A stretch of 45,182 nucleotides of DNA from Acidimicrobiia bacterium (GTDB lineage: Bacteria > Acidobacteriota > Vicinamibacteria > Vicinamibacterales > UBA2999): the NCBI GenBank assembly GCA_016871255.1, contig VFZH01000013.1:1-45182 (forward strand), in the 5' to 3' direction. Positions 8,834 to 19,089 of this stretch are shown here, piece after piece (positions within the stretch are counted from its first letter, which is position 1; each line of letters starts with the position of its first letter). A program made the translations under genes and the position numbers. The notes under the pieces are model-generated. The model searched no databases. It was not told the DNA's origin and was given only the letters and a program-made list of their open reading frames with translations.

Positions 8834-9496
8834 ATGCCTAGCGCGTCACGGCGCGGCGGGCCGGTGCACGCGGCGTCGCCGACGGCGGCCGCACAGACCG
8901 CCTCTCGCAGCCACCTGTCCGGTGACTCGGCGCTGGCCTCCGAGGTCAAGCGGCACGTACTCGCCGGCGAGCGGGACGCCGCGGTCGAACGGTTCGCCAT
9001 CCTGCTCGCCAACCAGCAGCGGCGGGCGGCGCGGATTGCGTTCCAGTACCTGCGCGACGTGCACGATGCGGATGAGGCCGTCCAGGACGCCTTCCTGCGC
9101 GTCTTCACCCACATCGCACGATATCGGGAGGATCTGCCATTCGAGGTGTGGTTCACGCGGATCCTCATCAATCGGTGCCTGGACGTCCGAAAGACGCGTG
9201 CCAGGCGACTGCGGTGGACGCTCCCGATCGAGGCGGCCGCCCCGGCGCCCGAGCCGCCAGACGGCAGCCCGAGTATCGAAGCGCGGCTGGTCAGCGGCGC
9301 GCGGGTGCAGGCGATTGCGGCGGCTGTCGAGACACTGCCGGAGCGACAGCGCGCGGTATTCATCCTGCGGCACTTCGGCGGTCACTCGCCCGCTGACGTG
9401 GGCCGCGTGCTCGGTTTGACGGAGTCGACGGTTCGCGTGCACCTGTTTCGCGCGATCCACCGCCTGCGGGCGCTTCTGGAGCGGGAAGGACCATGA
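8834..9496 (+). CDS. ECF-family RNA polymerase sigma factor
   Basis: This 220-residue protein is a sigma-70 factor of the extracytoplasmic-function group, which directs RNA polymerase to stress promoters. Region 2 is seen at about residues 56-100 (QYLRDVHDADEAVQDAFLRVF) and region 4 at about 157-216 (LPERQRAVFILRHFGGHS, then VGRVLGLTESTVRVHLFRA), with the helix-turn-helix at the end. A non-conserved, Ala/Ser-rich N-terminal extension of about 35 residues is unusual, and a later start cannot be excluded. The stop overlaps the ATG of a zinc-finger anti-sigma factor (ATGA, 9493-9496), a typical sigma/anti-sigma pair. A TATATT at 8786-8791 upstream is AT-rich, but I see no convincing -35 box. Confidence 0.93.
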   Translation: MPSASRRGGPVHAASPTAAAQTASRSHLSGDSALASEVKRHVLAGERDAAVERFAILLANQQRRAARIAFQYLRDVHDADEAVQDAFLRVFTHIARYREDLPFEVWFTRILINRCLDVRKTRARRLRWTLPIEAAAPAPEPPDGSPSIEARLVSGARVQAIAAAVETLPERQRAVFILRHFGGHSPADVGRVLGLTESTVRVHLFRAIHRLRALLEREGP

Positions 9497-10098
9497 GATC
9501 GAAACACCTGAGCGAGCAGCAGCTCGTCGCCGCCAGCGCCGGCGACGCGGGCACGGCTGATGAGCACGCCCACCTCTCGGCATGCGAGACGTGCCGTGCG
9601 CGTGCCGGCCGTCTCCAGGCCCTGCTGGCCGAGGTCGCCGCGGTGGCCGAAGCCGAAGCGGACGCCAGGTTTCCGAGCCACCGCCTGGAGGCCCAGCGCT
9701 CCCATATCCTGGAGTGCATCGAGCAGGACGGCCGCCCGGCCCAGATCATCGCCTTTCCGGCCGGATCGCGGGCGGAGGTGCGCACGCGCCGTGTCACGAC
9801 GAGGTCCCGCTGGGTTGCGGCGGCGGCCATCGCGGGGCTGGCCATCGGGCTCGCCGTGGGCCGCTGGTCGCATCGACAGCCGCCCGTGGCCCTCTCGCTG
9901 CCCGGCACGCCACCGGCCGATTCGGAGATCTGGGCCCCCGGGTCGGACAGGCCGGCCACTGCCCGCGGATCGTCGGAAGACGAGTTCCTCGGGCAGATCG
10001 AGCAGGCCTCGACCGGGCTGCTGCCGGAGCTGCGCGCCATCCACGAGCTGACGCCGCACGTGGAGCAGGTGCTCGCAATCAACGCGGACGGGCGGTAG
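9493..10098 (+). CDS. Membrane-bound zinc-finger anti-sigma factor
   Basis: The 201-residue product has an N-terminal HxxxCxxC motif (His27, Cys31, Cys34), the hallmark of the ZAS anti-sigma domain, which holds an ECF sigma factor inactive. A linker follows, then one membrane helix at about residues 107-124 (WVAAAAIAGLAIGLAVG) and a periplasmic tail of about 75 residues. The expected topology is N-in, C-out, so the tail could sense envelope state. It overlaps the upstream sigma gene by four bases. The periplasmic tail has no domain I recognise. The nearby Spy-like and TolC genes would fit an envelope-stress role, but their control by this pair is inference. Confidence 0.85.
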   Translation: MRSKHLSEQQLVAASAGDAGTADEHAHLSACETCRARAGRLQALLAEVAAVAEAEADARFPSHRLEAQRSHILECIEQDGRPAQIIAFPAGSRAEVRTRRVTTRSRWVAAAAIAGLAIGLAVGRWSHRQPPVALSLPGTPPADSEIWAPGSDRPATARGSSEDEFLGQIEQASTGLLPELRAIHELTPHVEQVLAINADGR

Positions 10099-10134: not shown

Positions 10135-11313
10135 GTGCCCCCCCTGGTCTTCCGCAAGGGCCTCGATCTGCGCAACGAGGTCATGCCGCTGCTGGCGGAG
10201 AGCTACCACAGCGATCTGATCGCCGCGATTCGCGAGGACGATTTCAAGTACCGCTCGGGCCGGCTGACCGTCCACCTGGCGCACGAGTTCGGCTTCTGCT
10301 ACGGCGTGGACCGTGCCGTTGACTACGCCTATCAGACACGCCGGCGATTTCCGGACCGCCAGGTATTCCTCACCGGGGAGATCATCCACAACCCCTACGT
10401 GAACGATCAGCTGCGGCGCCAGGGCGTCCGGTTCCTGAGTGACCCGGGCGAAGCCGTCGAGCGCCTCACCCCACCGGACGTGGTGATCCTCCCGGCGTTC
10501 GGCGCCACCGTGGACATGCTGCTGCAGCTCGAACGCCGCGGCTGCACGATCGTGGACACCACCTGCGGCTCGGTCCTGAACGTCTGGAAGAACGTGCGGC
10601 GCTACGCCCAGGACGGCCTCACGTCGGTCATCCACGGCAAGTACTGGCACGAGGAGACGCAGGCGACGGCGTCGCAGGCACACCTGGAAGGCCCGGGGCA
10701 CTTCCTGATCGTCCTGGATCAGGACGAAGCCGCGATCGCCTGCGCCTACATCCGCGGCGGCGGCGACCGGGCGGCGTTTCTCGACCGCTTCGCCAGGGCC
10801 GTGTCACCCGGCTTCGACCCGGATCTCCACCTCCTCCGCGTCGGCTGCGCCAACCAGACCACGATGCTCAGCTCCGAATCGCTGGCCATCGGCGAGATGT
10901 TCCGCCAGGCGATCGCCGACCGCCACGGTGCGGACGCCCTCGGGACGCGGTTCCAGGCGTTCGACACGATCTGCAGCGCGACACAGGACCGCCAGAACGC
11001 GGTCGCGGCGCTGCTCGACGACCACGCCCTCGACCTGATGATCGTGATCGGCGGCTACAACAGCAGCAACACCTGCAACCTGGCGCGCATGTGCGCCGAA
11101 CACGTGCCGACCTACCACGTCGCCAACCCGTCGTGCCTCGTCTCCCCGGACCGGATCCGCCACAAGCCGGTTGGGCAGAAAGACGACGTGGTGGCGAGCG
11201 GCTGGCTGCCCGGCACCGGGCCGATCCGGATCGGCCTGACGGCCGGGGCGTCCACCCCGGACAATCTCGTCGGGGAACTGATCCGAACGCTGGCCCGGTT
11301 CGCAGACGCCTGA
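10135..11313 (+). CDS. ispH: 4-hydroxy-3-methylbut-2-enyl diphosphate reductase, long form
   Basis: IspH carries out the last step of the non-mevalonate isoprenoid pathway, reducing HMBPP to IPP and DMAPP with a [4Fe-4S] cluster. The three cluster cysteines are visible: Cys55 in FGFCYGV, Cys144 in DTTCGSV and Cys280 in TICSATQDRQ. Other family blocks are TGEIIHNPYVN, VILPAFGA and IGGYNSSNT. At 392 residues it belongs to the long cyanobacterial/plant type rather than the roughly 315-residue E. coli type. The GTG at 10135 is kept because the N-terminal FRKG and the region around SYHSDLIAAIR resemble that long form. It is preceded by a perfect TATAAT box and followed by a GC-rich hairpin. Confidence 0.95.
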   Translation: MPPLVFRKGLDLRNEVMPLLAESYHSDLIAAIREDDFKYRSGRLTVHLAHEFGFCYGVDRAVDYAYQTRRRFPDRQVFLTGEIIHNPYVNDQLRRQGVRFLSDPGEAVERLTPPDVVILPAFGATVDMLLQLERRGCTIVDTTCGSVLNVWKNVRRYAQDGLTSVIHGKYWHEETQATASQAHLEGPGHFLIVLDQDEAAIACAYIRGGGDRAAFLDRFARAVSPGFDPDLHLLRVGCANQTTMLSSESLAIGEMFRQAIADRHGADALGTRFQAFDTICSATQDRQNAVAALLDDHALDLMIVIGGYNSSNTCNLARMCAEHVPTYHVANPSCLVSPDRIRHKPVGQKDDVVASGWLPGTGPIRIGLTAGASTPDNLVGELIRTLARFADA

Positions 11314-11394: not shown

Positions 11395-11853
11395 ATGACC
11401 CGGTTTTCCCGTTTCGGTCTGCCCGGGTGCCCGGCCGCCGCGCTCGCCGTGGTGATCGGCCTGATGGCGCCGGAGCCCGCCTACGGTCAGGGCCCGAGGG
11501 GCAGGTGGTGGCAGGACGGCACCGTTCAGCGCGAGATCGGGCTCACCGCCGACCAGAGCACGCGGATCGAGGGTCTCTTCCAGGAGGCCTTGCCCGTCCT
11601 GCGCCGTGGCAAGCGGCAGCTCGACGCCGCCGAGCGTGACCTCGCCCGCCTCATCGAGAGCGACGACTCGAGCGAGTCGATGCTCGTGCAGCAGGTGGAT
11701 GCGGTGGAAGCGGCCCGGGCCGCGATGAACAAGACCCGGACCCTGATGCTGCTGCGCATGCGCCGCGTGCTGTCCGCGGAGCAGCGGGACGGCCTCGACG
11801 CGCTCCACCGCGCCCGTGAACGGGAACGCGGGAACCGCTCGTCTCGTCACTGA
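11395..11853 (+). CDS. Periplasmic CpxP/Spy-like protein
   Basis: This 152-residue protein begins with a signal peptide (AALAVVIGLMAPEPAYG, cleavage expected near residue 31) and continues as a helical, charged protein. The LTADQ segment and the later LSAEQRDGLDAL match the LTxxQ repeats of the CpxP/Spy/heavy-metal-sensor family, which act as periplasmic chaperones or stress sensors. The ATG at 11395 lies downstream of a TAAGGGCCCTAA palindrome. The TolC-family gene follows nine bases later, so the two are probably one transcript. An exact role (metal sensing or folding help) cannot be read from the sequence. Confidence 0.75.
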   Translation: MTRFSRFGLPGCPAAALAVVIGLMAPEPAYGQGPRGRWWQDGTVQREIGLTADQSTRIEGLFQEALPVLRRGKRQLDAAERDLARLIESDDSSESMLVQQVDAVEAARAAMNKTRTLMLLRMRRVLSAEQRDGLDALHRARERERGNRSSRH

Positions 11854-11862
11854 TCAGCAGCC

Positions 11863-13584
11863 ATGAATCGAACGACGCTCTGTTTCGTACTGGTGGTCTC
11901 GGCCGCCGCACTCGGACCCCTCCCCGCCCTGGCCCAGGACGCCGAGCGGGTGGACGGACTCGCCCGCGACGCGGCAGCCCGTTTCGAACGGGCCCTCGCC
12001 GGAGGGCAGACGACCCGCACCGTCCCGCCCGTGGCCGGCGCGACCACCGATCTCACGCTGGACGAGGCCACGGCCCGGGCGCTGGAACGGAACCTGGACA
12101 TCGCGGTCGAGCGGTTGAACCCGCAGACCTTCGACTTCTCGATCGCGTCGCTGGACGCGTCGTACCGCCCGACGTTCTCGTCGCAGTTCGGGCTGCGGAA
12201 CGCGACGACGTTCAGCCGGAGCCAGACCGCCGGCGCGGTGGTGCTGGAAACGGCGACCCTGACCGGCAACAGCGGCCTGTCACAGAACCTCAAGTGGGGT
12301 GGCGGGCAACTGTCGGTGACCTTCAACAACAACCGGTTGAAGCAGAGTGACGCCTTTGCGCTGCGGAACCCGACGCTCAACACGTCGTTCAGCGCGGTCA
12401 TGGTGCAACCGCTGCTCCGCGGCTTCCGCATCGACGGCACGCGCTCGCAGCTGGTCATCACCCACCTCAACCAGGAGATCTCCGAGATCGCGCTCAAGGG
12501 CACGATCGTCGCCACGCTGGCCGGCGTCCGGAACGCGTACTGGGACCTCGTCTACGCCGTGCAGGCCGTGGACGTCGCCCAGCGGTCGCTCGCGCTCGCC
12601 ACCAAGCTGGTGGACGACAATCGGGCGCGCGTCGAAGTCGGCACGCTGGCCCCGATCGACGTCGTGCAGGCCCAGTCCGAGGAGGCGCTGCGCCGGCAGG
12701 CGCTGGTGCAAGCGGAAGCGACCCACCAGACAGCCGAGCTGGCGCTCAAGCGGCTGCTCGTGAGCGGCACGGACGATCCCCTCTGGTCGGCCTCCATCAA
12801 CCCCGTCGATCGCCCGATCTTCTCGACCGAGTCGCTGGACGTCGAAGGCGCCGTGCGGCGTGCGCTGCAGCAGCGGACCGACCTCCAGCAGTCGCTGCGC
12901 CAGCTCGAATCGAACGACGTGTCGATCCGCAACCTGTCCGACCAGCGGCTGCCGGCCCTGGACCTCACGGCCAGCTACGGCGCCTCGGGGATCGGAGGCC
13001 CTCAGTTCGTCCGCCAGGGCCTGGGCGGCCTGATCACGGACACGATTCCGAGCGGCTGGGGCGACGCCCTCGGCACTCTCGCCCACCTGACGGCGCCCCA
13101 GTGGAATCTGGCGCTGAACCTCAGCTACCCGATCGGCGCCAGCACCGCCGACGCCAATCTTGCCCGGGCGCGGGTCCAGAAGCAGCAGACGCTGGCCCAG
13201 TCCCGGAAGCTCGAGCTCCAGATCGCCACCGAGGTGACCAACTCCGCCCTGCAGGTCCAGAACAGCCTGACGGCCTATCAGGCGGCGCTGGCCTCCCGTG
13301 AGCTGGCCCAGCAGCGGCTCGACGCCGAGACCAGCAAGTTCGAGGTGGGCATGTCGACGAACTTCTTCGTCGTCCAGGCCCAGCGCGATCTCGCCGATGC
13401 CCAGAACGCGGAGCTGCGGGCGCTGCTCAACTACCGCAAGGCGCTCGTGGACTTCCAGCGCGTGCAGGAAGCGCCGGCCGGGGGCGGCTCGGGCGGTGGC
13501 GTGACGGCGGTCTCGGGCGGAACGGGCGGCGCGACCACCACGCGATCGACCGCCGGGGGCGGCGGCGGATTCGGCGGATTCTGA
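11863..13584 (+). CDS. TolC-family outer-membrane channel protein
   Basis: The 573-residue protein has a signal peptide (LCFVLVVSAAALGPLPALAQ) and the repeated TolC fold: LTLDEATARALERNLDI near residue 66, a long helical hairpin (VRNAYWDLVYAVQAVDVAQRS), GTLAPIDVVQAQSEEA, and the second repeat with ALQVQNSLTAYQAALASREL and VGMSTNFFVVQAQRDLADAQ. It would form the outer-membrane and periplasmic tunnel of an efflux or secretion system. The last 45 residues are an unusual Gly/Ser/Thr-rich tail ending in a Gly-rich GGF. No membrane-fusion protein or intact pump gene adjoins it; only a 3' scrap of an RND pump follows at 13587. Confidence 0.93.
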   Translation: MNRTTLCFVLVVSAAALGPLPALAQDAERVDGLARDAAARFERALAGGQTTRTVPPVAGATTDLTLDEATARALERNLDIAVERLNPQTFDFSIASLDASYRPTFSSQFGLRNATTFSRSQTAGAVVLETATLTGNSGLSQNLKWGGGQLSVTFNNNRLKQSDAFALRNPTLNTSFSAVMVQPLLRGFRIDGTRSQLVITHLNQEISEIALKGTIVATLAGVRNAYWDLVYAVQAVDVAQRSLALATKLVDDNRARVEVGTLAPIDVVQAQSEEALRRQALVQAEATHQTAELALKRLLVSGTDDPLWSASINPVDRPIFSTESLDVEGAVRRALQQRTDLQQSLRQLESNDVSIRNLSDQRLPALDLTASYGASGIGGPQFVRQGLGGLITDTIPSGWGDALGTLAHLTAPQWNLALNLSYPIGASTADANLARARVQKQQTLAQSRKLELQIATEVTNSALQVQNSLTAYQAALASRELAQQRLDAETSKFEVGMSTNFFVVQAQRDLADAQNAELRALLNYRKALVDFQRVQEAPAGGGSGGGVTAVSGGTGGATTTRSTAGGGGGFGGF

Positions 13585-13586
13585 CA

Positions 13587-13760
13587 CGTGTTCTCCCCAA
13601 GGCCCCGCTGGCCCGCGTGGTCATCGGCGGCCTCACGGCGTCCGCGCTCGTGACCCTCGTGCTGGTGCCGGCGGTCTGCACGCTCTTCGAAGAGGGGCTC
13701 GAAGGCCTGCGGCGGGGACACGCGCCCGCGTCAGCGGGTGCGGCGAAGGCGATCGAGTAG
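13587..13760 (+). pseudogene. 3' remnant of an RND efflux pump gene
   Basis: Directly after the TolC stop, an open frame of 57 codons ending at TAG 13758-13760 has no start codon of its own at the beginning. It reads as the last membrane helix and tail of an RND (AcrB/HAE1-type) transporter: PLARVVIGGLTASALVTLVL followed by VPAVCTLFEEGLEGLRRG. In such pumps this PL..VVIGGL...LVTL.VVP..Y.LFE block is the final helix, so the upstream roughly 1000 codons have been lost. The remnant's last 30 bases overlap the 3' end of folK on the other strand. I infer that an RND pump once followed the TolC gene and was deleted. Confidence 0.75.
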
Positions 13761-14192
13761 CGTCTGGACGCTCAGGGCGGTGACCGGGTCCCGCCAGTCC
13801 GCCGCCACGGCCGCCAGGGGCGCGAGCACGAACTCGCGATCCCGGAACCGCGGGTGCGGCACCGCCAGACCCGGTTCGTCGATCACCTGCTGGTCGTAGA
13901 AGATCAGGTCCAGATCGAGCGTGCGGGCTGCGCCCGGCGCCGGACGCGTCCGGCCCAGGTCCGCTTCAATCGCCAGCAGGCGCTCCAGGAGGGCCCTGGG
14001 TGCCAGCGTCGTGTGCCCGACGGCAGCCGCGTTGAGGAACCGCGGCTGGCGGCCCACCCCCACCGCGTCGGTCTCGATCGCCGGCGACAGCCGGCACGCA
14101 TCGAGCAGAGCCGCCAGCCGCGTACCGGCCTCGCGTACGTGCCGCTCGCGATCGCCGAGGTTGCTGCCGATCGCGACGGCGACCCGCGCCAG
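13731..14192 (-). CDS. folK: HPPK, 2-amino-4-hydroxy-6-hydroxymethyldihydropteridine diphosphokinase, CTG start
   Basis: FolK transfers pyrophosphate from ATP to 6-hydroxymethyl-dihydropterin in folate synthesis. Family motifs are AIGSNLGDRERHV at the N-terminus, QPRFLNAAAVG, GRTRPAPGAARTLDLDLIFY and PHPRFRDREFVLAPLAA. An open frame runs up to ATG 14384, but the extra 64 residues overlap the upstream gene and are not family-like. No ATG, GTG or TTG lies near the true beginning. CTG 14192 would give MARVAVAIGSN, the expected N-terminus, and 153 residues in total. A good Shine-Dalgarno sequence GGGTGGAG (14205-14198) ends five bases before it. The gene begins two bases after the stop of the upstream gene. 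Confidence 0.9.
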   Translation of the reverse strand: MARVAVAIGSNLGDRERHVREAGTRLAALLDACRLSPAIETDAVGVGRQPRFLNAAAVGHTTLAPRALLERLLAIEADLGRTRPAPGAARTLDLDLIFYDQQVIDEPGLAVPHPRFRDREFVLAPLAAVAADWRDPVTALSVQTLLDRLRRTR

Positions 14193-14194
14193 TG

Positions 14195-14701
14195 CTACTC
14201 CACCCAGCGTGTCGCCAGCACGCGACCCATCCGTGAGGCCCCGGCCGTCCGGCGGCCGAGCAGGTCCTCGAAGCCCCGGGCGGCCTGCTCGAAGAGCTGC
14301 TGGTGCTCCCGGGTCTCGCCCAGCAGGATGCGCAGCATCGTGCGATGACGCGCGTGCGTCATCGCGTCCACCACCGGCGTCCACCGCTCCACGAACGCCG
14401 CCAGGTGCCGCACGTCGTCCTCGAGCACGGCCGTGAAGTCGCCGGCCTCCGCCGCCCCCCTGCCTGCCGGCACCGCGGGCACCGGGAGTGCGGCCGGAGC
14501 CGGCGGCACCGGCGCCTCGAGGCCGGCGAGCGCCTCCCGGAGCCAGGACAGATGGGTCTCTTCCCGGGCGATCACGTACTGATAGGTGTTGTTGAAGTCG
14601 TAGTGGGCGACCACGCGGGCGCCGGCCTCGTGGCGCTGGAGGAGGGCCAGCCGGTCGGCCGTGAGGTCCGACAGCAGCCGCAGGAGCGTCGGTTGATTCA
14701 C
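14195..14701 (-). CDS. Possible ferritin-like helical protein
   Basis: The 168-residue product from GTG 14701 is mostly helical. The first half holds HYDFNNTYQYVIAREETHLSWL with an ExxH pair (Glu47, His50), and the second half VDAMTHARHRTMLRILLGETREHQQLFEQ with another Glu/His cluster. A Pro/Ala-rich linker of about 25 residues separates the halves. Paired helices with Glu and His ligands suggest a ferritin-like or DinB-like four-helix bundle, possibly di-iron, but the second motif is not a clean ExxH. The longer frame from 14797 overlaps the DksA-like gene and is rejected. It lies between a DksA-like gene and folK with gaps of eight and two bases, so it is probably co-transcribed. Confidence 0.55.
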   Translation of the reverse strand: MNQPTLLRLLSDLTADRLALLQRHEAGARVVAHYDFNNTYQYVIAREETHLSWLREALAGLEAPVPPAPAALPVPAVPAGRGAAEAGDFTAVLEDDVRHLAAFVERWTPVVDAMTHARHRTMLRILLGETREHQQLFEQAARGFEDLLGRRTAGASRMGRVLATRWVE

Positions 14702-15125: not shown

Positions 15126-17687
15126 TCACTCGGCGCGGAGCGTATCGAGCGGCTTGTGACGGAGGACTTCCAGGCTCGCGAGGACGCCGACGACCGCGAC
15201 GAGCAGCGTGGTGAGCAGCACGCCGGCCACCGAGAGGCCGGGCGCGGGCGTCCAGGGCAGCTCGAGGCCCCAGGTGGCGATCGCCCAGCTCAGCACCACC
15301 GCACCCGCGGCACCAATCGTGCCGGCGATCGCGCCGAGCACGGTGTACTCCAGGAGCAGGGTCATGCCGATGAGGCGCGTGCTGGCGCCGAGCGTCTTCA
15401 GGACGGCCGCCTCGTACACGCGCCGGAACTTCGTCATCGAGACCGCCCCGACCAGAATCAACGTGCCGCTCAGCAGCACCAGGGCACCGACGACCGTCAC
15501 GCCGCGTGTGACCGTCGCCATGACGTCACGCGCCAGACGCAACGCCTCCTGCACGTCGATGACGGACACGTTCGGGTATCGGGCGGAGAGCCCGCTGATC
15601 AGGACCGCACGCGCCTCCGGATCGGCCGGCCCCCTCGCCGTGGCGATGAACCCGTGCGGCGCGTCGTCGAAGGTCCCGGGAGAGAACACGAACATGAACC
15701 CCCCGGACCGGAAGTCGCGCCATTCCACCTCGCGCACGCTGGTCACGCGAGCCGAGATGATCCGGCCGAAGAGGTCGAAGCGCATCTCGTCGCCCAGATG
15801 GATCCGGTAGCGCTCGCGCAGGCTCTCCTCGATCGACACTTCCGCGACGGATCGGTCGCCGCCGGTCCACCATCGGCCATCGAGCAGCGTTTCGTTGTCC
15901 TCCAGGTGCTCGCGATACGTCACCGTGTATTCGCGCGCCAGCGACCCACGCCCGCGCACGTCCTGGTAGCCGTCCAGGTTCAGCTCGCGGCCGTTCACCC
16001 CGACGACGCGCGCGCGCAAGACCGGAATCGCGGCTGGCGGGGGCTCCTCGCCGTTCCGCGTGTCCACGAACGCGGCCAGCCCGTCGCGCTGATCCCCCTG
16101 CACGTCGAGCAGGAACAGGTCGGGCGCATCCTCGTCGATCTGGAGCGAAATGTCGGCCAGCAGGTTGCCCTGGAGCGCGCGGACGCCCAGGATGAAGAAG
16201 ACGCCAAGGCCCACCGACAGCAGGACGATACCCGCCTGGCTGCCGGGCCGCGCCACCTGAAGCACGGCGTGACGGAGCGCAAACGACCGGGCCCTCGCCA
16301 GGGGCTGGACGGCGCGCACGAGCGCGAGGCCTGCGCCGTGCAGCACGATCGTCAGGGCGACCAGCCCGCCGCACACGATCAGGGCGATCTCCACCGACCC
16401 GGCCTGCCAGGTGGCGACCGCCACCAGCGCGGCGGCCACGGCGGCGGCAGCACTCCAGCGCGTCCAGTCGATCCCCTCGCGAGGCGTGATCTCGTGGCGG
16501 AGCAGCAGGGACGGCTTGACGTCGCGCACCTGCAGCAGCGGCACCAGGGCAAAGAGCAGTGCCACCAGCAGGCCCACCGCCACGCCCTGCGCGACCGCGG
16601 AGACCGTGAGGCCGTACTCCAGCCTGGCCATGGCGGCCACCTGCACCGGCGCGGCCGCCGTGAGGGCTGGTACGGCGGCGAGGACGCCCGCCGCGATGAG
16701 TACACCCACGACACAGCCGGCCGCCGCCAGCACGCTGGCCTGCGTGAGGTAGGCCGCCAGCACCTGCCGGGTCGTGGCACCCAGGCACTTCAGGATGGCG
16801 ACGCTCCGGATCTTCTCCTGCACGAACACGCGGACCACGCTGGAGATCCCGATGCCGCCGAGCGCGAGGATGACCAGCCCCACGAGGCTCAGGTAGTTCT
16901 CGGCGCGTGACAGGTTTTCGCCAAGCCGATCCTCGGCGCGCCGGTAGGTCCGCACGCGCACGTATTCGGTGACGAAGCTCGCGCGCAGACTGTCGGCCAG
17001 CGGGTCCAGATGTGTCTCCGGGACCCTCAGCAGCACCTCGTAGGACACGCGCGACCCGAAACTCAGCAGGCCCGTGGAGGCCAGGTCCGCGCGGTCGATG
17101 ACGACGCGCGGACCGAAGCTGAACGCTCCGACCGAGCGGCCCGGCTCGGACGCCACCACGCCGCGCACCTCGAACCTTGCGTCCCCCACGCCAATGACAT
17201 CGCCAACGTCGAGGCCGAGCTGGGCCAGCAGATCAGGCCCGACCAGGGCGCCGTGATCCCGCAGCAGGTCGTGCCGGTAGGTTCCCTCTCGCAGCACGAG
17301 CGTGCCGTACATCGGATACCCGGCATCGACCGCCCGCAGTTCGACGACGCGTGCGCCGGCGTCCGGTCCCCGCATGCTCCGCGCCATCGTCGTCAGCTCG
17401 ATGGCATCGATCGCGTCCAGCACTCGGCCGGCCGTCCGTTCCCCGGCAATCTCCTGCCGCACGACGCCGGTGATCGGGTTGTTGCTGCTGATGATCAGGT
17501 CCGCCCCGAACATGCTCCGGGCGTCCGCCGTCAGGGCCACGCCGACGTTCTGCACCACCGACCGGAGCGCCACGATCGCGGACACCCCGATGGCGATGCA
17601 GGCAAAGAAGACCAGCAGGCGCCGCCAGGACGCGCGCAGCTCCCGCGCGGCCAGCGTCATGACGAACCGCATCGACGCGCCGTTCAT
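15126..17687 (-). CDS. ybbP: ABC transporter permease, YbbP type (FtsX-like domains)
   Basis: An 853-residue inner-membrane protein with an N-terminal helix (LLVFFACIAIGVSAIVAL), a large periplasmic MacB-type domain (MFGADLIISSNNPITG onward), and two FtsX-type permease blocks: about residues 265-400 (IRSVAILKCLGATTRQVLAAYL) and the C-terminal helices (YEAAVLKTLGASTRLIG). A second periplasmic segment (DISLQIDEDAPDLFLLDVQGD) separates them. This is the layout of YbbP, the partner of the ATPase YbbA. The start overlaps the ybbA stop as ATGA. The substrate is not known for the family. Together with tesA it suggests a lipid- or ester-related role. Confidence 0.9.
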   Translation of the reverse strand: MNGASMRFVMTLAARELRASWRRLLVFFACIAIGVSAIVALRSVVQNVGVALTADARSMFGADLIISSNNPITGVVRQEIAGERTAGRVLDAIDAIELTTMARSMRGPDAGARVVELRAVDAGYPMYGTLVLREGTYRHDLLRDHGALVGPDLLAQLGLDVGDVIGVGDARFEVRGVVASEPGRSVGAFSFGPRVVIDRADLASTGLLSFGSRVSYEVLLRVPETHLDPLADSLRASFVTEYVRVRTYRRAEDRLGENLSRAENYLSLVGLVILALGGIGISSVVRVFVQEKIRSVAILKCLGATTRQVLAAYLTQASVLAAAGCVVGVLIAAGVLAAVPALTAAAPVQVAAMARLEYGLTVSAVAQGVAVGLLVALLFALVPLLQVRDVKPSLLLRHEITPREGIDWTRWSAAAAVAAALVAVATWQAGSVEIALIVCGGLVALTIVLHGAGLALVRAVQPLARARSFALRHAVLQVARPGSQAGIVLLSVGLGVFFILGVRALQGNLLADISLQIDEDAPDLFLLDVQGDQRDGLAAFVDTRNGEEPPPAAIPVLRARVVGVNGRELNLDGYQDVRGRGSLAREYTVTYREHLEDNETLLDGRWWTGGDRSVAEVSIEESLRERYRIHLGDEMRFDLFGRIISARVTSVREVEWRDFRSGGFMFVFSPGTFDDAPHGFIATARGPADPEARAVLISGLSARYPNVSVIDVQEALRLARDVMATVTRGVTVVGALVLLSGTLILVGAVSMTKFRRVYEAAVLKTLGASTRLIGMTLLLEYTVLGAIAGTIGAAGAVVLSWAIATWGLELPWTPAPGLSVAGVLLTTLLVAVVGVLASLEVLRHKPLDTLRAE

Positions 17688-18388
17688 ACGGACACCACCC
17701 TCGACGTCCTGGCCGCGGCGGTGGACGACTCCAGCGTCGCGTGGCCGTCGCGCAGGATCAGCCGCCTGTCGGCCAGCGCGGCCAGCTCGGCATCGTGCGT
17801 GACCAGGACGAAGGTCGTGCCCCTCGTCCGGCGGACCTCGAGCAGCAGGTCCAGGATGTGCGCCCCTGTCCTGGAGTCCAGGTTGCCTGTCGGTTCGTCC
17901 GCCAGCAGCACCGGCGGGTCGTTGGCGAGCGCACGGGCAATGGCCACACGCTGCTGCTCGCCGCCCGACAGCTGCGACGGGTAGTGGTGCCCGCGGCTGG
18001 CGAGCCCCACTTCCGCCAGCAGGCTCTCCGCGCGGCTCAGCGCGTCGCGTCGGCCCGCAATCTCCATCGGCACGGAGACGTTCTCAAGGGCCGTCAGCGA
18101 CGGCACCAGGTGGAAGAACTGGAAGACGAACCCGATCGTGGCACCGCGCAGTCTTGCCAGCGCGTCCTCATCGAGCGTCGTGATGTCGGTGTCGTCGAAG
18201 CGGATCGAGCCGGTCGTCGGGGCATCGAGACCGGCCATGAGCCCCAGCAGCGTCGACTTCCCGCTTCCCGACGCCCCCAGGACGGCGAGAAACTGCCCCC
18301 GGGCAATCACGAGGTCCAGCGGGTGCAGAATCGTGAGCGGCCGGCCGCCGCTCGTGACGGTCTTCGAGACGTCCCGCAGTTCGATCAT
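17684..18388 (-). CDS. ybbA: ABC transporter ATP-binding protein, YbbA/LolD type
   Basis: The 234-residue ATPase has Walker A GASGSGKST, the Q-loop FQFFHLVPSLTALENV, the ABC signature LSGGEQQR, Walker B VLLADEPTGNLD and the H-loop VTHDAEL. It belongs to the MacB/LolD/YbbA group that drives FtsX-fold permeases. ATG 18388 gives MIELRDVSK, the family start; a longer frame to 18427 adds 13 unrelated residues inside tesA. It overlaps tesA upstream and ybbP downstream, each by four bases (ATGA), so all three should be made together. Confidence 0.93.
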   Translation of the reverse strand: MIELRDVSKTVTSGGRPLTILHPLDLVIARGQFLAVLGASGSGKSTLLGLMAGLDAPTTGSIRFDDTDITTLDEDALARLRGATIGFVFQFFHLVPSLTALENVSVPMEIAGRRDALSRAESLLAEVGLASRGHHYPSQLSGGEQQRVAIARALANDPPVLLADEPTGNLDSRTGAHILDLLLEVRRTRGTTFVLVTHDAELAALADRRLILRDGHATLESSTAAARTSRVVSV

Positions 18389-19089
18389 GGTTCGACCCGC
18401 TCGAGGTGCGGCTCGATCGCGGTCCACACGAGCGCCTCGACCTTCCGTGCGCCCTCCGGGTTGGGATGGATGCCGTCCGGCAGGTTCAGCGACGGCACAC
18501 CGGCTACGCCGTCGAGCAGGAACGGAATCAGCGTCACGTCGTACTCCCGGGCCAGATCCCGGTACACCTGGCGGAACGACCCCGTGTACTCCGGGCCGTA
18601 GTTGGGAGGAGCCTCCATGCCGGCCAGCACCACCGTCGCACCGGCCTCGCGTCCCTGCTCGATGATGGCCGAGAGGTTGTCCTCCAGTTGCGTCACCGGC
18701 AGCCCCCGCAGGCCATCGTTGCCCCCGAGCGCCACCACCAGCAGGTGCACGTCACCGTCGAGCGACCAGTCGAGGCGGCGGAGCCCGCCCGCCGAGGTGT
18801 CGCCGGACACGCCCGCGTTGACCACGTCGTACGCGTAGCCGGCGGCATCGAGCCGATCCTGCAGCAGCGCCGGGTAGGACTGATCCGACTCGAGTCCGTA
18901 CCCGGCCGTGAGGCTGTCCCCCAGCATCACGATGCGAGGCCGGCCCGACGGCGTCGGGACGGACGCGGCCGGCACGGGTGCGGCAGTCGCCGCGGGAAGC
19001 GTGGACATCCTCGCGGGCTCGTCACCGGCCGCGCAGGCCCCTGCCAGCAACGCACACGTGAGGGGAACGACGGGGCGCACGATCATCAT
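18385..19089 (-). CDS. tesA: GDSL arylesterase/lysophospholipase TesA, probable lipoprotein
   Basis: A 234-residue SGNH hydrolase of the TesA type (thioesterase/lysophospholipase/arylesterase). Block I is MLGDSLTAGYGL with the nucleophilic Ser; block II GVSGDTSAGG; block III GGNDGLRG; block V DGIHPNPEG with the catalytic Asp and His. The N-terminus (IVRPVVPLTCALLAGACAAG) is a signal peptide with a possible lipoprotein cysteine, though the residue at -3 is Ala rather than Leu. A linker rich in Ala/Pro/Thr leads to the catalytic domain. The start is ATG 19089 or the next codon. The stop overlaps the ybbA start (ATGA). In E. coli tesA also adjoins ybbA-ybbP, but divergently. Confidence 0.92.
   Translation of the reverse strand: MMIVRPVVPLTCALLAGACAAGDEPARMSTLPAATAAPVPAASVPTPSGRPRIVMLGDSLTAGYGLESDQSYPALLQDRLDAAGYAYDVVNAGVSGDTSAGGLRRLDWSLDGDVHLLVVALGGNDGLRGLPVTQLEDNLSAIIEQGREAGATVVLAGMEAPPNYGPEYTGSFRQVYRDLAREYDVTLIPFLLDGVAGVPSLNLPDGIHPNPEGARKVEALVWTAIEPHLERVEP

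Follow-up and report, generated by a model that had tools for sequence, protein, structure and literature searches.

The tolC locus of the window

The stretch of DNA analysed here (45,182 nucleotides of contig VFZH01000013.1, referred to below as the window) carries on its forward strand a conserved block of genes that ends in an outer membrane channel. The block is opened by a gene for an ECF-type RNA polymerase sigma factor (8834..9496; NCBIfam sigma70-ECF, E 1.7e-26), which is followed by an anti-sigma factor gene (9493..10098; NCBIfam antisigma, E 3.5e-5, below cut-off), ispH (LytB; 10135..11313; Pfam LYTB, E 3.7e-67), a gene for a Spy-like/Metal_resist protein (11395..11853; Pfam Metal_resist, E 2.9e-10; NCBIfam Spy, E 0.0029, below cut-off) and tolC (11863..13584; Pfam OEP, E 4e-37). 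The channel has the features of a TolC-type outer membrane factor, with two stretches matching the OEP repeat (PF02321) in an intact frame of 573 stop-free codons, and shares 51-72% identity with its linked counterparts in 20 relatives. The tails of these linked TolCs vary in length and are often glycine-rich (...GGGGGFGGF in the window, 13470-13581), and in many of the 20 relatives the C-terminal residue is Asn.

Downstream, a convergent folK lies on the reverse strand (13731..14384; Pfam HPPK, E 6.5e-33), whose real start may be internal to the listed frame (the HPPK match begins at residue 70). Further on are YbbA/YbbP-type ABC genes (15126-18427), which are not, to our knowledge, partners of TolC. 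No adaptor or pump gene adjoins tolC in the window, its neighbours being ispH, the Spy-like gene, folK and, between tolC and folK, a short open frame on the forward strand (13587..13760) that overlaps folK by 30 bases. This frame was read in the original prediction as the 3' end of an AcrB-type RND pump gene, left behind when an efflux operon lost its pump and adaptor while keeping the channel.

The frame encodes 57 residues with no internal stop (13587-13757), followed by a stop codon at 13758-13760. It contains no ATG, GTG or TTG before a GTG at 13617, which falls inside a helix, and is for that reason not a regular gene. Taken alone, the 57 residues match RND models weakly and near their C-terminal ends: Pfam ACR_tran (PF00873), to which residues 5-34 align at positions 991-1020 of 1021 (E 0.0098, under the cut-off), the CusA/CzcA model TIGR00914 at positions 1007-1041 of 1051 (E 9.8e-5, below cut-off) and ZneA (PDB) at positions 987-1021 (E 0.0065). 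The decisive evidence for the identity of the frame comes from synteny.

An intact efflux operon in the closest relative

When the window TolC was compared with 59 genomes (58 relatives and its own), the closest relative was G005 (72% identity), whose locus (L037) has the same neighbours on both sides. The order there is sigma factor, anti-sigma factor, ispH, Spy-like/Metal_resist gene, tolC, an adaptor of 470 aa, an RND pump of 1043 aa and convergent folK, with identities to the window of 55% for the sigma factor, 35% for the anti-sigma factor, 71% for IspH and 56% for FolK. Beyond folK, both genomes share genes for a 200-aa protein, a DksA-like protein, a YbbP-/YbbA-type ABC system and a glucose-6-phosphate-isomerase-like protein (the sigma factor, DksA-like and isomerase-like genes being named partly by eye). 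The G005 adaptor scores well above the RND_mfp cut-off (TIGR01730; 224 bits vs 94.9). Its pump matches RND_permease_2 best (787 bits), followed by TIGR00915, which we take to stand for HAE-1 (533 bits), and TIGR00914 (522 bits), all of them under their cut-offs.

It is to the C-terminus of this syntenic pump that the short frame in the window is clearly related. Over pump residues 994-1034, 33 of 41 residues are identical (E 1e-13 in the 45-kb window), which places the homologous stretch at 13599..13721 on the forward strand, or as far as 13745 in a second search; the first four residues of the frame and its last 4 to 12 have no counterpart in the G005 pump. As a whole pump the frame fails, only 41-49 residues being left of a permease of ~1040. 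Judging from the ends of the matched profiles and from the general topology of RND pumps, they would cover the last membrane helix and the start of the tail. Together with the position of the pump in relatives, this match bears out the reading of the frame as a 3' remnant of an RND pump gene. The AcrB label is loose, the G005 pump scoring about equally on TIGR00915 and TIGR00914. In G005 as well, the 3' end of the pump gene overlaps folK, and this overlap could explain the survival of that end in the window.

Among the 20 relatives whose loci were fetched, 16 have an adaptor and a pump behind tolC, two have an adaptor and then a contig end, and in two the contig ends just behind tolC. Pump sequence is thus found at the syntenic position in 16 of the 20, and the contigs of the other four end too early.

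Loss of adaptor and pump on one branch

No orthologue of the G005 adaptor or pump was found elsewhere in the draft genome of the window (243 contigs, rated 99.76% complete), where the best pump homologue is 35% identical and the best adaptor homologue 33%. Besides the remnant, that genome carries three complete RND genes and a further one truncated by a contig end, and channel matches were seen on six contigs other than that of the window. The pump might have been relocated rather than lost, splitting the operon, and in this group MacAB-type genes do sit either in the tolC-folK slot or elsewhere in the genome; the lack of any adaptor or pump orthologue contradicts relocation for this assembly and makes it scarcely credible. 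An assembly artefact or minority variant, in which the organism keeps both genes and the contig skips them, deserves more attention in a draft of so many contigs, but it is decidedly unlikely given the same lack of orthologues in a near-complete genome and a contig that continues with its neighbours in order.

How general the occupied state is was assessed in a larger set, partly overlapping the 20 relatives and built from the best 80 of 86 TolC matches. It comprises 82 loci (79 on named genome contigs, plus those of two additional relatives and the window itself), and 14 of them have no linked ispH or Spy-like gene. Besides the window there are 67 linked loci among these best 80 of 86 matches, eight of them on contigs that are too short; every one of the 59 assessable loci has an adaptor or pump behind tolC, and none is empty. 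Loci without tolC are absent from this set because it was found by TolC similarity. In a TolC tree (from which 12 TolCs located at other sites were omitted, apart from L125 and L128, restored as outgroup), the window groups with G005 and G018 with an SH-aLRT value of 99 in a quick search. For this tree the window was scored as empty, although its remnant alone drew an RND label. Since both tree sisters carry RND genes and 59 of 59 assessable loci are occupied, the loss falls on the window's own branch.

Synteny, the search of the draft genome and the tree thus agree with the original prediction that adaptor and pump were lost while tolC was retained. Our main reading, to which we give a probability of roughly 90%, is that one deletion on a single branch took the adaptor and most of the RND pump out of a tripartite efflux operon and left tolC and a scar.

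Junction and age of the deletion

The stop codon of tolC (13582-13584) is followed by 14 bases and then by the sequence that aligns with pump residue 994 onward. A putative trace of the adaptor gene start can be seen on the forward strand at 13581..13592, where 11 bases (13582-13592) are identical to those at the adaptor start of G005 and a C replaces the A of ATG, so that the putative start reads CTG in the window. The short frame is in frame with both this putative start and the pump tail. A match of 11 bases was reached by 4 of 20000 mononucleotide shuffles, and among the 20 relatives G005 gives 11 and the other 19 give 4-7. The detail is nevertheless tentative because the sister genome G018 lacks the 11 bases. 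If the match reflects homology, the deletion would start at about adaptor codon 4-6, in frame with the pump tail. On our main reading, the deletion removed some 95% of the pump gene along with the adaptor gene (the latter from about that codon on, if the junction is read correctly) and joined the remaining sequence to pump codon ~993. Taking the gene lengths of G005 as a guide, ~4.3 kb would have been lost. The operon now ends at tolC, with the pump codons forming a scar between tolC and folK that is probably untranslated.

The remnant has hardly decayed, which a false join of the assembly would also give. Over 36 codons it differs from the G005 pump by 4 bases at first, 3 at second and 19 at third codon positions, and the intact pumps of 12 relatives are similar among themselves. 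Its mean pN/pS is 0.25, compared with 0.19-0.34 for five intact pumps and the pump tail of G014 described below (the set being the seven of 15 sources that passed an exact-motif filter, namely these six plus the window, which entered with its tail alone, and eight were dropped). At one position, where all 12 relatives compared have a tyrosine, the window has a cysteine. As the remnant is still coding-like, the deletion looks recent; this is the plain reading of the substitutions, and selection on the tail is the alternative. No relaxation was seen in the channel: the mean identity to 16 outgroups is 0.589 for the window TolC, 0.570 for G005, 0.566 for G018 and 0.582 and 0.560 for two others, a comparison that is uninformative if the deletion is recent. 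Because the deletion looks recent, a conserved TolC is not evidence of a new job.

The tolC-folK interval in other genomes

A pump of at least 68% identity is present in 38 of the 43 family genomes searched, those without it being the window, G014, G017, G018 and G029. G018 is explained by a contig break: one contig ends with the adaptor, and another ends with the pump tail next to folK. In the other four family genomes the pump is truly absent, and of these the window alone has kept the channel: in G014, G017 and G029 the linked TolC is gone too, and the best TolC matches are 41-44% identical. In G014, the sigma factor, anti-sigma factor, ispH and Spy-like genes are kept, followed by ~116 codons of the pump end and then folK, and the locus is without tolC and adaptor. 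In G017, the Spy-like gene is followed by folK, and no tolC, adaptor, pump or tail was found at the locus. Homologues of the window's sigma and anti-sigma factor genes lie at the matching position in G005, G014 and G017. G029 has an IspH homologue (53% identity), around which none of the locus neighbours was found in the 17 kb fetched. The G014 scar is independent of that in the window, and the loss of all three genes in G017 is scarless. Unless they are artefacts too, the G014 and G017 losses suggest that the slot is truly lost in this family, which argues against an artefact in the window. Because the Spy-like/Metal_resist gene is kept in the reduced loci of G014 (L177) and G017 (L178), it may have a function independent of the pump.

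The tail in G014 (L177:7957-8331) is an open frame of 125 codons that starts with an ATG at L177:7957. Roughly the first ten codons are unlike the pump and, by their position behind the Spy-like gene, may be the start of the lost tolC. Compared with the pump of G027, one of 100 residues differs, with a pN of 0.005 at a pS of 0.333 over 100 codons. Such conservation in a frame with a start codon, the coding-like substitutions of the window remnant and the fact that both tails are in frame with the apparent start of a lost gene would all fit a small membrane protein made from the last helix of the pump and kept by selection. We regard this as very improbable for the window, where the frame has no start codon before mid-helix and the conserved tyrosine has changed to cysteine; a recent deletion explains the substitution pattern equally, two in-frame joins occur by chance once in 9, and the two tails are unlike in length and start. 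Intact small-protein homologues in other genomes, which the original prediction had named as evidence against itself, were not found: the sole other short homologue examined, that of G014, is the scar of a different deletion.

Short frames were sought with the last 129 pump residues in 162 genomes of the order, at a threshold too strict for the window's 57 codons. Among the matches listed, eight of at least 71% identity lie in open frames of <600 aa (G014, G004, G018, G044, G074, G078, G021 and G011). Of these listed matches, G014 is the scar, G004, G018, G044, G074 and G078 have a pump match running to the contig edge, and G021 is frameshifted. The G021 pump gene (L184:2628-5641) consists of two overlapping pieces in different frames (residues 1-687 and 694-1043), reflecting either a frameshift or a sequencing error.

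What follows tolC varies across the order. Among the 59 assessable loci from the best 80 of 86 matches, 33 have RND genes, five have RND and MacAB genes, and 21 have MacAB genes, with some of these assignments made from the adaptor alone. In the 21, the linked TolC is followed by MacA-like genes and, where the contig reaches, by ATPase and MacB-type genes. The tandem of RND and MacAB occurs in four separate parts of the TolC tree, and in G044 and G074 pump sequence is followed by MacAB and then folK. Intervals between tolC and folK with RND, MacAB or both occur in different Vicinamibacterales (L107, L110, L117, L046, L078, L082, L083, L124, L183 and L185). The locus otherwise comes from Acidobacteria records, and three records that contain it under other titles, Acidimicrobiia for L078 and L134 and Cyanobacteria for L087, may be mistitled. 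The simplest history of the slot would be an ancestral tandem with repeated losses. A more sweeping proposal is unlikely to hold. In it, Vicinamibacterales would use the interval between tolC and folK as an exchangeable pump slot, in which a conserved channel with its sigma factor and Spy-like protein has been joined by RND genes, MacAB genes or a tandem of the two; a channel retained after loss of its pump would re-pair with an unlinked MacAB, and the tails (57 codons in the window, 125 with an ATG in G014) would perhaps be made as small membrane proteins.

A candidate partner for the orphan TolC

As anticipated in the original prediction, an orphan TolC of this kind may serve another exporter. 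In the window's own genome, a MacA (67%) lies at the end of contig C139, and an ATPase (71%) and a MacB (61%) lie on contig C145. Neither C139 nor C145 yielded a TolC gene, and none was found in the flanking sequence fetched around the MacAB genes of G005 and G018; a TolC paralogue directly follows this type of MacB in six of the 14 relatives that have it. We also considered whether the window's MacB is a slot MacB that has moved out. The 15 slot MacBs cluster in another clade, the one exception being L153, which lies elsewhere in its genome, and on account of this difference the move was rejected.

The MacAB on C139 and C145 is a plausible candidate, and the best one on the basis of genome content, for a partner of the orphan TolC. 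The channel is without its own pump and, if still working, would have to rely on an adaptor from another locus, the likeliest being this MacA. A second channel gene, on contig C31, is 44% identical to the window TolC, with no adaptor found nearby, and could equally serve the MacAB on C139 and C145. The genomes searched include a single genome of the window's genus.

Relation to known systems and outlook

HgdD, a channel of the cyanobacterium Anabaena, and TolC of Salmonella are established shared channels. A single channel can serve several exporters through different adaptors, Salmonella TolC working with RND, MFS and ABC systems (PMC8277102). Set against these channels, the pump-less state of the window is new in one lineage and its partner is a candidate only. 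The nearest likeness to the deletion is mexXY-oprA of Pseudomonas aeruginosa PAO1, where part of oprA is still present downstream of mexY and OprM serves as the channel of MexXY (PMC3516279). There too, a tripartite operon that is intact in other strains has lost a component and retains a small gene piece as a scar. The kept part in PAO1 works with OprM, encoded elsewhere, whereas in the window the unlinked partner is a candidate. In contrast to the window, which lost adaptor and pump and kept the channel, PAO1 has lost the channel and kept adaptor and pump (PMC3516279). Because this near mirror image and shared channels are already in print, the finding in the window is of an ordinary kind. 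Our searches yielded no paper linking Vicinamibacteria with efflux and TolC and, among the papers listed, none on this locus by title.

In conclusion, the window offers a snapshot of a three-part export machine falling apart, in which connector and pump go and the outer channel stays. Seen alongside the relatives, it suggests an operon in which the channel is stable and the energised pump can be exchanged, which offers a natural test of TolC promiscuity. The exchangeable pump slot, if that is what the interval between tolC and folK is, would be a more interesting by-product of this analysis than the gene remnant itself.
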